Source: a virus. From it: a stretch of DNA of 22,677 nt. Each line of letters opens with the position of its first letter. The stretch's first letter is position 1. A program made the position numbers and the translations under genes. The stretch spans positions 1 to 22,677 of IMG/VR virus record IMGVR_UViG_3300029448_000478; one strand, 5' to 3'. Below are positions 11,015 to 17,719 of this stretch, one piece after another. Under the pieces are notes generated by a model. The model searched no databases. It was not told where the DNA came from and was given only the letters and a program-made list of their open reading frames with translations.

Positions 11015-11430
11015 TGAGAACACAATTACTTTGTACATTTACCGCAGAAGATAGATTAAAGTTTGTGGTAGATTTAATAATAGCATCACATGATGTTCTG
11101 TTTGATAAAATCTATGTGTTCACGAACCAAAAAGATTCGTCACAGTTAATATGCACTTACAACATACCAAACAACCAAGATAATTTTATCGAAGGTATGG
11201 ATACTATAGCATTACATCGTAAGAAACAATCCAATACATTATACACGATAAATGCACTCAACGAGGTCATCAGAAAAAAGAATAATGGAGTATTGGATAA
11301 AAAATTTCCAATAGAATGGAGTGAGTTTCAAAACTCATTATTGTTAGTCAATGATAAAGGACTAAACATCATACCAACAAGAATTCATAAAATAATCAAT
11401 ACGGAGACTTGGTCAAACGAAAACTTCTAA
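11014..11430 (+). CDS. Small conserved-looking protein of unknown function
   Basis: A 138-residue protein starting MRTQLLCTFT; its ATG overlaps the previous stop (TAATG) and its own stop overlaps the next ATG the same way. The pattern is alternating strands and helices (DRLKFVVDLIIASHDVLFDKIYVFTN, then LICTYNIP), suggesting a small alpha/beta domain with a C-terminal extension. No membrane segment, signal peptide or catalytic motif is visible. I have a faint recollection of similar small proteins next to replication genes in other T4-like phages, but cannot name a family. Its position inside a coupled chain makes the gene itself convincing. Confidence 0.7.
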   Translation: MRTQLLCTFTAEDRLKFVVDLIIASHDVLFDKIYVFTNQKDSSQLICTYNIPNNQDNFIEGMDTIALHRKKQSNTLYTINALNEVIRKKNNGVLDKKFPIEWSEFQNSLLLVNDKGLNIIPTRIHKIINTETWSNENF

Positions 11431-12269
11431 TGAATTATAGGTTTTACTATCCTGATTGGAACAGCAGGGAAGACATCTGTTCCAAACATCCTGAAATCAA
11501 AGAAATCACTAAAGAACCCACAGCTTTTTGGTATGGTGTTGGGCCTAAACGAACCATTAGAAAGACCAAACACTCAATACAAAGATTACTCAAACGAGCA
11601 CATCCATATTTACCAACATTAGTAATTTACTCGATACCCAATAGGGATTTAGGAGCACACTCAAAAGGTGGTGCAGAAAGTGATGATGAGTATTTGGAAT
11701 TCATTCAAGAGTTTTGTAATTCACTTGGAGACAAATCACCAATAGTAATATATGAACCTGATTGTATACCACACATGGAACACATGGGTGTGGTTGATGG
11801 AATGGATAGGTTGAGTTTAATCAAGGCCTCTGTTGAATTATTGAGTAGGACAAACGCTCTTGTATACTTGGATATAGGACATCCCAAATGGTTAAGTCCA
11901 TCCAAGGCCACGAGTTATCTAAGACTATGTGATGTTCATAAGATAAAAGGATTCACACTCAACACGAGTAATTACTACGCCACATCAACTTGTTATAAAT
12001 ATGGAAAGGATATTTCCAAAAGATTGGATGACACACACTTCGTCATCGATACCTCACGAAATGGAAACGGAGCTAACTCCGAACATTTCAATCCCTATGG
12101 TCGTGCCTTAGGAGAACCACCCACAACAAATACCTGTGATGAGATAGTGGATGCTTATCTATGGGTAAAGGTGCCAGGTGAAAGCGATGGAGCCGTAAAT
12201 GGTGGCCCAAAGGCTGGTAGGTTCTCCCATAACCTAGCACTCGACCTAATTCATAATAAAAAAAGTTAA
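11430..12269 (+). CDS. Glycoside hydrolase family 6 (cellulase-type) catalytic domain
   Basis: A 279-residue protein that is almost entirely a GH6 domain, the family of inverting endoglucanases and cellobiohydrolases that cut beta-1,4-glucan. Hallmarks in order: SIPNRDLGAHSKGGA (68-82, D73), IVIYEPD (105-111, the usual acid, D111), VYLDIGH (145-151), GFTLNTSNY (174-182), VIDTSRNGNG (205-214), NPYGRALG (221-228), DAYLWVKVPGESDG (241-254, D253). All the catalytic-site aspartates are kept. There is no signal peptide, linker or carbohydrate-binding module, and the cysteines that secreted relatives place after RD, after W of WC(N/D)P and after DG are L74, F220 and A255, fitting a cytoplasmic or virion protein. 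I chose ATG 11430, which overlaps the previous stop (TAATG), over the TTG at 11409. The natural substrate (cell-surface glucan, exopolysaccharide, host polymer) is unknown. Confidence 0.9.
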   Translation: MNYRFYYPDWNSREDICSKHPEIKEITKEPTAFWYGVGPKRTIRKTKHSIQRLLKRAHPYLPTLVIYSIPNRDLGAHSKGGAESDDEYLEFIQEFCNSLGDKSPIVIYEPDCIPHMEHMGVVDGMDRLSLIKASVELLSRTNALVYLDIGHPKWLSPSKATSYLRLCDVHKIKGFTLNTSNYYATSTCYKYGKDISKRLDDTHFVIDTSRNGNGANSEHFNPYGRALGEPPTTNTCDEIVDAYLWVKVPGESDGAVNGGPKAGRFSHNLALDLIHNKKS

Positions 12270-12316: not shown

Positions 12317-12339
12317 AATATATGATAAAGAGAGATAAA

Positions 12340-13056
12340 ATGAAAAAGATAAAACTCACAAAAGAAACTAAAAAACATTGGTTTCACGCAAAAGCGTATA
12401 ACAATGAACCAATATTAAATAAACATCATATCATTCCGAGACATCATGGGGGTGTAGATGAACCTCATAACATGACCCCACCGTTGACCTTGATGGAACA
12501 CGCAGAAATGCATCTTGATATCCACAAGAATGGTATTGAGGGAGTCAAAGGAACCAAAGGTTGTAAAGAATGTCTGAAAAACTACAAAACCTTAAAGGGA
12601 CAACATGAGAAATTCAAAATACTAGCCGAGTTATATAAAGGTGATGTCGATACGATAGAATTTTATCGTTACGAAAATAAAGAACCAAATGTCTTAGATG
12701 AAATTTGGGAAGTCACAATTGGTGATGAAAAAGAACACATAGATACATGGGATGTTTCACAGACTATTGGTTATGAAGCAGGTGTTTATGAAAATACAGA
12801 GTTTGAGACACCAGATCATGAAATGATGAAAGATTCCTTGAATGAGGAAGTGACTTGTGTTTTGGACACCCTAAGTGAAAGAGAAAGAATTATTACTGAG
12901 ATGTTCTTTGGAATCAATAGAGAAGATCAATTGACATTGGATGAAATAGGTGAAGAGTTTGATTTAACTCGTGAAAGAGTTCGAGGTATCAAAGAAAAGT
13001 CCATTCAACGACTTCGTCATAGGTCAAGAAGTCAACCACTAAAGTGGTATATTTGA
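12340..13056 (+). CDS. HNH nuclease-like domain fused to sigma-70 region 4
   Basis: A 238-residue protein. Residues 27-62 have an HNH-type pattern: NKHHIIPRHHGG (27-38), N44, and HAEMH (54-58), as in phage HNH and homing endonucleases; CKEC at 75-78 could bind metal. Residues about 165-238 match regions 4.1 and 4.2 of primary sigma factors: LSERERIITEMFFGI (178-192), LTLDEIGEEF (198-207), then the -35-reading helix LTRERVRGIKEKSIQRLRH (209-227) and SRSQPL. In E. coli RpoD the same helix reads TRERIRQIEAK, so the Arg and Glu that contact the -35 element are kept and the following Gln is Gly. Sigma regions 1-3 are absent. It may be a homing endonuclease using region 4 to find promoters, or a phage regulator binding RNA polymerase. 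AGAGA precedes ATG 12340; the ATG at 12322 is too close to the transcription start. Confidence 0.82.
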   Translation: MKKIKLTKETKKHWFHAKAYNNEPILNKHHIIPRHHGGVDEPHNMTPPLTLMEHAEMHLDIHKNGIEGVKGTKGCKECLKNYKTLKGQHEKFKILAELYKGDVDTIEFYRYENKEPNVLDEIWEVTIGDEKEHIDTWDVSQTIGYEAGVYENTEFETPDHEMMKDSLNEEVTCVLDTLSERERIITEMFFGINREDQLTLDEIGEEFDLTRERVRGIKEKSIQRLRHRSRSQPLKWYI

Positions 13057-15881: not shown

Positions 15882-15909
15882 TTGTTTTGAGAAATCAAGA
15901 CAATATATA
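15882..15909 (+). promoter_or_regulatory. Candidate promoter of the structured RNA
   Basis: TTGTTT (15882-15887), 16-bp spacer, then TATATA (15904-15909) within an AT repeat. It would start transcription near 15915, almost exactly at the first strand of the RNA's 10-bp 5' stem. The match is weaker than the six repeated promoters; read-through from copy 6 is an alternative source of the RNA. Confidence 0.45.
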
Positions 15910-16048
15910 TATACGAGTCGATTAAGATGTTAAGTCATCACTGTTAGGGGATAGGAATTAAAGAATTCACTTATCTCGTTGAATCGAAGTATGGTTCCCT
16001 TTCTGGACTCGACTCGTAAGTTTTTTGAAAATTTTGAAAATAAAAGTG

Positions 16049-16161
16049 GAGAGATTAATTACCTCTCTATGGGGATTGACCGAAAAATGGGTGACAACGA
16101 AGCCCATAAGGTAATCCACCGAGATGTTGTGGTGACTAACTCAATGCCGAATGTGGTGTTA
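16049..16161 (+). repeat. Structured RNA internal module, copy 1
   Basis: Ordered elements: AGAG/CTCT hairpin (16049-16068), TTGACC (16076-16081), six bases, TGGG...CGAAG-CCCA hairpin (16087-16107), ATAAGGTAAT (16106-16115), a short hairpin, ACTAAC (16135-16140) and GTTA (16158-16161). The same ordered elements recur in copy 2. Confidence 0.65.
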
Positions 16162-16209
16162 ACAAGGTAGTTTCGTAGACATACGACTCGGAATGTACTT
16201 TTAGAAATA

Positions 16210-16377
16210 CAAAGAAGCGATTCTTTGACCTCTTTGTGGGTAAGGGTAAAACCGAAGTCCCACCGTGTGACCGAATAATTTATTCTCAGAGAGATAAGGT
16301 AATGACACAGAAGTTGTTTTCGCTCCAACGATAACTAACCATTATTGAGGAGAACCATCGTAACTGATGGGTGTTAG
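16210..16377 (+). repeat. Structured RNA internal module, copy 2
   Basis: Ordered elements: GNRA-loop hairpin (16210-16227), TTGACC (16225-16230), six bases, TGGG...CGAAGTCCCA hairpin (16236-16263), an extra hairpin (16273-16285), ATAAGGTAAT (16294-16303), GTTG/CAAC hairpin (16313-16329), ACTAAC (16334-16339) and GTTAG (16373-16377). It is longer than copy 1 through insertions inside loops. Confidence 0.65.
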
Positions 16378-16547
16378 GTAAGAGGTTCGAACAAATCTGA
16401 GCTAAAAGTTGTAGGTATTCGCAAAATCCTACATCCCAATATTTTCAAACATTGGAAGGTATCTTTACAGATTGAAAAGATGAGAAGGGTGTTATTGTAT
16501 TCCCTAACTTTCCAAAAAATTTGACTATTGATAATCATAGTCCTTAG

Positions 16548-16612
16548 AGGTGATGAGGCTTTCTTACATATACCGATAATTTAATTTATCTAAAACTCAT
16601 CACCTTTTTTTT
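16548..16612 (+). terminator. Intrinsic terminator of the structured RNA
   Basis: Perfect 10-bp stem AGGTGATGAG (16548-16557) with CTCATCACCT (16596-16605), immediately followed by eight Ts (the last stem T through 16612). The 38-base loop holds its own hairpin GATAA/TTATC (16575-16590). It marks the 3' end of the RNA and separates it from the next gene. Confidence 0.88.
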
Positions 16613-16634: not shown

Positions 16635-16859
16635 ATGAGTATTTATTGGAACAAATATTATGGTTATGATGAAAAGTATCCTGACGAACCAAATTACAGA
16701 GCGATATCAGGTATATTTTTTAATAGAGACTTTACTTTGATTATCATTTGGAGTAAACTGCAAATACATTTATCAGTAAGAGATTTAAGAGAGTGGAATC
16801 CCTTTGAGGGGCCACCACCACCATCAAAATGGTATCATTTTTTAGCAAGAAATATTTGA
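16635..16859 (+). CDS. Small hypothetical protein (74 aa)
   Basis: A 74-residue aromatic-rich protein, MSIYWNKYYGYDEKYPDEPN at the start, a hydrophobic beta stretch (DFTLIIIWSKLQIHLSV) and a proline run (FEGPPPPSKWYHF). Only a weak GAGA precedes the start and no clear promoter was seen between the upstream terminator and the ATG, so expression is less certain than for its neighbours. Coding-like composition and the clean fit between the terminator and the gp32 leader support it. Confidence 0.52.
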   Translation: MSIYWNKYYGYDEKYPDEPNYRAISGIFFNRDFTLIIIWSKLQIHLSVRDLREWNPFEGPPPPSKWYHFLARNI

Positions 16860-16887
16860 TTTTTTTATCAAAAAGTTATACTTATAT

Positions 16888-16913
16888 TTGTCAAAGGTTA
16901 CGACCAATGACAA
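16888..16913 (+). promoter_or_regulatory. Hairpin in the gp32-like gene leader
   Basis: TTGTCA (16888-16893) pairs with TGACAA (16908-16913), then a symmetric AA/AA internal loop, GGT/ACC and a UACG tetraloop (16899-16902). A TATACT (16877-16882) with a poor -35 (TTGATT, 15 bases upstream) would start transcription near the base of this hairpin. The rest of the leader to ATG 16958 is A/T-rich and unstructured. In T4, gp32 binds a structured and unstructured leader on its own mRNA to shut off translation; the same logic may apply. Confidence 0.45.
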
Positions 16914-16957
16914 TTAATAATTAACAAATTAAACATAAAACATAAGGAGAATATCGA

Positions 16958-17719
16958 ATGGATATTAACGCCGTAAGAAAGAGGTTAGCTCAATTACAAA
17001 CGACTAACACTCGAACTACAAATCTATGGAAACCCCAGCCGGGTAAAACTCAAATCAGAATCTGCCCTTACAAACTACAAAAAGACACTCCGTTTATTGA
17101 GCTGTTTTTTCATTATGACTTAGGTGGAAAGTCTTATCTTTCACCAACTTCATTTGGAAGACCTGACCCAATCGAAGAGTTTGCTGACAAGTTAAAGTCA
17201 AGTGGTAATCGTGAGGATTGGAGACTTGGTAAGAAGTTAGAAGCAAAACTCAGAACATTCGCACCAGTAGTGGTTCGTGGAGAAGAAGCACAAGGTGTTA
17301 AGTTTTGGGGTTTTGGTAAAACTGTTTATCAAGAACTACTATCTATCATAGCAGATCCTGACTATGGTGACATATCCGACCCACTCAATGGTCGTGATGT
17401 CGGAGTTGAGTTTTTAACCGCCGAAGAGACTGGAGCATCGTTTCCAAAAACAAACATTCGTGTTAAACCAAATCAAACTCCTATCACAGAGGATAAGGCT
17501 CAACTTGAGAATATCTTAGACAATCAAAAAGACATTACGGAAGTTTATCAAGAATTATCTTATGATGAACTAAGTGATGCTCTTAATAATTGGTTGACAC
17601 CCGATGATGAAGAAAAGGAAGAAACTAAAGACGAATCAGTTCCAGCATCAACTTTAAAATCAGCAGTAAAGACTACTGAAAATGTAAGTGATGCTTTTGA
17701 TGACCTTTTTAACTCTTAA
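16958..17719 (+). CDS. Single-stranded DNA-binding protein (gp32-like)
   Basis: A 253-residue protein with the layout of T4 gp32: a basic N-terminus for cooperative binding (AVRKRLAQLQ, 5-14), a core (LWKPQPGKTQIRICPY, then KFWGFGKTVYQELLSIIADPDYGDISDP at 115-142) and an acidic tail (PDDEEKEETKDES, ending SDAFDDLFNS) of the kind that docks replication partners. Only one cysteine (C36) is present, so the gp32 zinc site (one His, three Cys) is missing. It coats single-stranded DNA during replication and recombination. AAGGAG lies 7-12 bases before the ATG. The recombinase gene starts 17 bases after its stop, so both are probably one transcript. Confidence 0.88.
   Translation: MDINAVRKRLAQLQTTNTRTTNLWKPQPGKTQIRICPYKLQKDTPFIELFFHYDLGGKSYLSPTSFGRPDPIEEFADKLKSSGNREDWRLGKKLEAKLRTFAPVVVRGEEAQGVKFWGFGKTVYQELLSIIADPDYGDISDPLNGRDVGVEFLTAEETGASFPKTNIRVKPNQTPITEDKAQLENILDNQKDITEVYQELSYDELSDALNNWLTPDDEEKEETKDESVPASTLKSAVKTTENVSDAFDDLFNS

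Follow-up and report, generated by a model that had tools for sequence, protein, structure and literature searches.

A T4-like marine virus carries, between orf98 and orf74/gp32, a non-coding RNA gene that is probably a transcription unit in its own right, bounded by a promoter and a terminator; it has two modules related to the manA RNA, and its product would act in trans. The source is a linear 22.7-kb virus record, analysed at its full length of 22,677 nt (the window). The RNA falls in the non-coding stretch between orf98 and orf74/gp32, and is followed in order by genes for gp32, a RecA/UvsX-like recombinase, a 5'-3' exonuclease and a DnaB-like helicase. An initial annotation had proposed a large multi-domain structured phage RNA here, and covariation, the promoter, the terminator and the lack of coding all support that proposal. 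The features referred to below are as follows, in window coordinates.

15885-16612, + strand: whole putative non-coding RNA gene including its promoter, with a covarying 5' stem, a conserved core of ~430 nt and a covarying terminator
15885-15911, + strand: predicted promoter of the RNA, directly 5' of it, TTTTGA ... TATATATA (written as TTTTGA-N-TATATATATA, 15885-15913)
15912-16018, + strand: 5' domain, closed by ten perfect pairs, TACGAGTCGA (15912-15921) with TCGACTCGTA (16009-16018)
16021-16449, + strand: core, closed by the A/T-rich helix P1; the stretch of ~430 nt that recurs in relatives covers 16018-16453
about 16021-16034 (5' strand) and about 16438-16449 (3' strand), + strand: helix P1, enclosing the outer manA helix
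16046-16191, + strand: module A, manA-like and covarying, with a P2 hairpin, P4/P5 and a four-way junction P6-P9 with a GUGGU loop
16072-16076 (GGGAT) and 16433-16437 (ATCCC), + strand: outer manA helix P3, paired in 23/23 relatives, two pairs changing on both sides
16210-16227, + strand: hairpin P10 between the modules, CAAAGAA-GCGA-TTCTTTG, seven pairs and a GCGA loop in the window
16235-16437, + strand: module B, manA RNA (RF01745), 64.5 bits
16285-16290 (CTCAGA) and 16396-16401 (TCTGAG), + strand: pseudoknot PK2, from the unbiased tree-based covariation scan, paired in 23/23, five sequence versions
16313-16316 (GTTG) and 16361-16364 (TAAC), + strand: possible loop-loop contact, paired in 23/23, zero pairs changing on both sides
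16452-16515, + strand: three-way junction with nine closing pairs (stem ~16452-16460/16507-16515 in the MFE fold), only in close relatives
16546-16612, + strand: 3' hairpin and intrinsic terminator with its U-run, stems compensatory between relatives
16858-16957, + strand: gp32 promoter, leader hairpin and ribosome-binding site, separate from the RNA and kept in relatives that lack it
16958-17719, + strand: gene for a gp32-like ssDNA-binding protein (PF08804, E 8e-11), the next conserved gene, outside the RNA gene

Relatives were found via RecA and gp32 scans of IMG/VR, in which the core recurs upstream of gp32; those with two modules are all metagenome contigs. Since RNAalifold, run without constraints on the full transcripts, produced only a poor consensus, the helices were drawn by hand and then counted. 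Across 23 non-redundant relatives 93.9% of the cells of the 93 drawn pairs hold and 60 of the 93 pairs change on both sides, with a covariation score of 0.519, whereas 500 shuffles give 0.228 ± 0.008 and slid structures no more than 0.13. Because hand-drawn helices lean towards the alignment, we added an unbiased scan of 95,266 column pairs in 35 sequences (G statistic with average-product correction), its null being substitutions replayed on a FastTree tree in 60 replicates by a script of our own in the manner of R-scape, not R-scape itself. Eleven pairs reach E<0.05, all of them Watson-Crick or wobble: eight lie in drawn helices, two in helices P12 and P13, and one exposed PK2, which reads CUCAGA/UCUGAG in the window and CUUAGA/UCUAAG, CUUGGA/UCCAAG, CUCUGA/UCAGAG or CUUUGA/UCAAAG elsewhere among the relatives. 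The covariation score is decisive evidence for a structured RNA, and the proposal withstood comparison with homologues, whose stems do carry compensatory changes. Folding energy alone is weak evidence that fails even to pick the strand: z is -2.4 for the + strand as against -3.0 for its complement (20 shuffles each). The initial annotation had seen about 700 nt without a credible gene. A coding region was rejected: in 35/35 relatives no frame of the core is open on either strand, with at least five stops in each + frame and no conserved reading frame across the region.

The individual elements differ in how far they are conserved. P1 is the weakest helix because of its low complexity; its mean duplex energy is -8.1 kcal/mol for own pairs, -6.8 when strands are swapped between sequences and -3.6 with shuffled 3' strands. 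The 5' strand of P3 is in module A and its 3' strand in module B, so that both modules are inside one closing helix, and since the flanked relatives match the profile end to end, both modules go together. The perfect 10-bp 5' stem noted earlier is present, and in relatives its domain is replaced by a short hairpin whose arms are compensatory (ACGAGTCGA/TCGACTCGT, GTATC/GATAC, TGTCT/AGACA, GACC/GGTC). The reported GNRA hairpin with a seven-pair stem is likewise found in the window; at the P10 position the stem recurs in relatives with compensatory arms but the GNRA loop does not, and 64% of its cells are paired in alignment A1, where P10 is partly misaligned. The three-way junction closed by nine pairs does appear in the MFE fold, and is kept in close relatives only. 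Pairing of GTTG with TAAC may represent a loop-loop contact. Four related loci (L052, L063, L066 and L067) have an extra structured-looking 3' domain of ~130 nt between core and terminator, confined to that subclade.

The affinities of the RNA are with manA, a family described from bioinformatics by Weinberg et al. 2010 (PMC2864571) and listed in Rfam as RF01745, type Cis-reg. Searched with the covariance models of Rfam 15, module B scores 64.5 bits against the manA cut-off of 55.2, and a second, weaker match covers 16047-16266 (E 5e-7). Thirty of 50 related records exceed the cut-off, and in 15 of the 50 there are two matches, with the additional one immediately 5' of the other; 14 control genomes gave no manA match. 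The reciprocal search agrees, in that a model of module B built without cyanophage sequences (R2) finds manA in 10/10 cyanophage loci with E values of 9e-13 to 4e-4. A blastn search of the region against the phage collection returned no match because cyanophage manA is too diverged. Module B shares with manA a hairpin, the UGACnGAAUAA/UAAGGU helix, the four-way junction, the 3' hairpin and the outer closing helix, GGGAG/CUCCC in manA and GGGAU/AUCCC here with two covarying pairs. A PK2-like complement is also visible by inspection in cyanophage copies (GGCAU/AUGCC in P-SSM2, GGUCA/UGACC in S-CREM1).

For module A the resemblance is more distant. It reaches up to 42.7 bits against the manA model in relatives, below the cut-off, and these matches run ~30 nt into module B; a model of module A gave no convincing match in the cyanophage loci, and its direct sequence alignment with module B is weak. 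The two modules have UGACCGAA...UAAGGUAAU in common, and module A is likely a copy of the same domain. Judged by these model matches, module B is manA and module A likely so, which would make the RNA a two-module variant and a new form of the family. The earlier suggestion of a class like GOLLD or ROOL, or a new one, is not borne out as regards membership of those families, the RNA falling instead in another known family, manA: GOLLD, ROOL, OLE, HEARO and raiA gave no Rfam 15 match up to E 10, and three further matches to other Rfam families (E 1.5 to 5) were judged to be chance. The RNA differs from manA in having two modules rather than one inside a closing helix, extra 5' and 3' domains, and its own terminator ahead of a separate promoter for the next gene.

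Both ends of the transcript are predictions from sequence. As the initial annotation had it, there is a candidate promoter at the 5' end, and this element is strongly conserved at the same place in most relatives; at the 3' end an intrinsic terminator pairs GGTGATGAG with CTCATCACC (16596-16604) ahead of eight T, and its arms also differ in compensation between relatives. The gp32 promoter lies downstream of this terminator, and the gp32 leader hairpin (16888-16915), at the start of the predicted mRNA, has compensatory arms of its own (TTGTCA/TGACAA, ATCAAG/CTTGAT, GTATC/GATAC). In one relative (L031, 4960-5077) the core is absent: the RNA promoter abuts the RNA terminator, and the gp32 promoter comes next. 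A diverged RNA, suspected there from the terminator, was ruled out by a full-model search without filters, which found nothing of module B and so revealed the loss of the core; we read this natural absence as a deletion. From the L031 unit one would expect no more than a short hairpin RNA bearing the conserved apical sequence.

The neighbours of the RNA also change. A pattern scan of IMG/VR gave at least 119 stretches, the RNA being common in marine virus contigs, and RNA and next gene share a strand in every case. Among the matches listed, that gene is gp32 in 101 of 110 newly fetched loci and hsp20 in two (L194, L279); in two the RNA is upstream of a gene for 703-705 aa (L224, L254; the L224 copy resembles phage cobalamin-biosynthesis-like, CobT-like, proteins) and in two it precedes a gene without Pfam match (L255, L278); one locus (L248) has one gene in between and two end too soon to tell. 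Searched as exact matches, the pattern turned up in none of 84,980 genomes of bacteria and archaea. By gp32 and RecA the closest cultured phage is Microcystis phage Mel-JY01 (48-56%), followed, by gp32 only, by Flavobacterium phages (37%), and manA is absent from the complete genomes of Mel-JY01 and Flavobacterium phage immuto. Among the RNA carriers examined, only the window has orf74 (16635-16859, + strand) between RNA and gp32; three other loci (L017-L019) have an orf74 relative and no RNA.

In the single-module manA loci of cyanophages a sigma-70 promoter (TTGACA-N16-18-TATAAT, at most two mismatches) ends 0-9 nt before manA in 9/10 cases, the background being 0.7 such matches per kb of strand. 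Here too the surroundings vary: manA comes after gp23 in P-HM1, S-SSM5 and P-RSM4, before gp32 in P-HM2 and before talC in P-RSM6, and in P-TIM68 the next annotated gene is on the opposite strand. Terminators follow closely 3' of manA in P-HM1, S-SSM5 and P-SSM7, while in P-HM2, P-RSM6 and P-SSM2 a start codon comes soon after the end of manA without a clear terminator, in the manner of a leader. In Synechococcus phage S-CREM1 (L090, 1633-2003) manA occupies the whole interval that separates the tRNA-Leu and tRNA-Asn genes of a tRNA array, which looks as though it were excised along with the tRNAs. The window itself has no tRNA or tmRNA.

Because the RNA promoter, 5' hairpin and terminator are conserved and the gp32 promoter is separate, and because the core is lost in L031, neighbours change, cyanophage copies have promoters and no antiterminator was found, we favour a stand-alone RNA, and infer both its transcription as predicted and an action in trans. 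The constant co-orientation with the next gene and the leader-like copies in P-HM2, P-RSM6 and P-SSM2 count against this. The proposed promoter would give a transcript of ~700 nt ending at its own terminator, which would fold with both manA modules in one closing helix and a pseudoknot in the second, and would act in trans rather than as a leader of the next gene. The conserved loops of the two modules might then act as a pair of sites to which a host or phage protein binds in the course of infection; this seems the most likely mode of action, although it is a guess and weakly supported. By extension, all manA RNAs could form, in place of a riboswitch family, a stand-alone class with a promoter of its own that binds a host or phage factor in trans, of which the two-module form would be divalent and may assemble into larger RNA or RNA-protein complexes, a generalization that we offer as tentative and rather doubtful.

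The main competing explanation is a tandem riboswitch in the gp32 leader, the two modules being ligand-binding aptamers and the terminator at 16612 the switch. It was the location in 5' UTRs that led to manA being put forward as a riboswitch candidate (PMC2864571), and the RNA is indeed co-oriented with and close to the next gene, with a terminator in between. However, the gp32 promoter follows that terminator and is kept where the RNA is absent, and next genes differ both in relatives and in cyanophages. An antiterminator would be expected as complement of the terminator arm in the core, yet its length is 4.2 nt as against 4.14 by chance (20 loci, exact Watson-Crick pairs only). The separate promoters, changing neighbours, core loss in L031 and lack of an antiterminator all weaken this explanation for the two-module RNA, for which we consider it unlikely; going by its arrangement, the variant does not appear to be the cis-regulatory 5' UTR element implied by its Rfam type. 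For cyanophage manA a riboswitch is only weakened, since some copies are within ~50 nt of the next start codon.

The T4 gene 32 leader, which serves translational autoregulation through a pseudoknot, is like this RNA a structure 5' of a gp32 gene. The RNA described here terminates before gp32's own promoter, however, and also precedes other genes.

It is still less probable that the RNA is a carrier for its 3' hairpin, the latter acting as a base-pairing small RNA that the manA modules stabilise. In the larger clade 49 loci (some being overlapping fetches of one contig) have an apical sequence, TTTTAGTTTCCAC, after the core; it is otherwise found in the 1.05 Mb searched only at the same place in L031, where it persists without the core, and is better conserved than the stem beneath it. 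Against this, the apical sequence differs from TTTTAGTTTCCAC in the window and close relatives, and it is the manA core that covaries most strongly. That the RNA is a giant one of the GOLLD, ROOL or OLE kind, forming cages or oligomers, is very improbable, similar though the size, several domains, stand-alone unit and phage genome are to the large stand-alone phage RNAs GOLLD and ROOL (established knowledge, and PMC12286853), because it is manA and not their Rfam models that the RNA matches.

Since 2010 manA has stood as an orphan among riboswitch candidates, and it is still classed as cis-acting in a 2025 review; among open-access papers we found no experimental study of it. The conserved succession of promoter, RNA and terminator, the disappearance of the core in one piece from a relative and the unrelated next genes point instead to an independent RNA, so that to look for a ligand suited to the downstream gene may be to start from the wrong model. 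As cultured cyanophages carry manA, the question is directly testable. In five cyanophage loci (L175, L177, L178, L179 and L092) the -35 box of the manA promoter (TTGACA) overlaps the hairpin of an upstream terminator (GAGGGTGCTTGACACCCTCTTTTTTTATGCTATAAT), so that terminator and promoter use the same bases.

Two other genes of the window deserve mention. That at 11409-12269 (+ strand) encodes a glycoside hydrolase of family 6 (PF01341, E 6e-47), a cellulase-type family, here in a phage. The product of 12322-13056 (+ strand) has sigma-70 region 4 at its C-terminus and, by eye, an HNH-like histidine-rich N-terminus, and is possibly a phage sigma factor.
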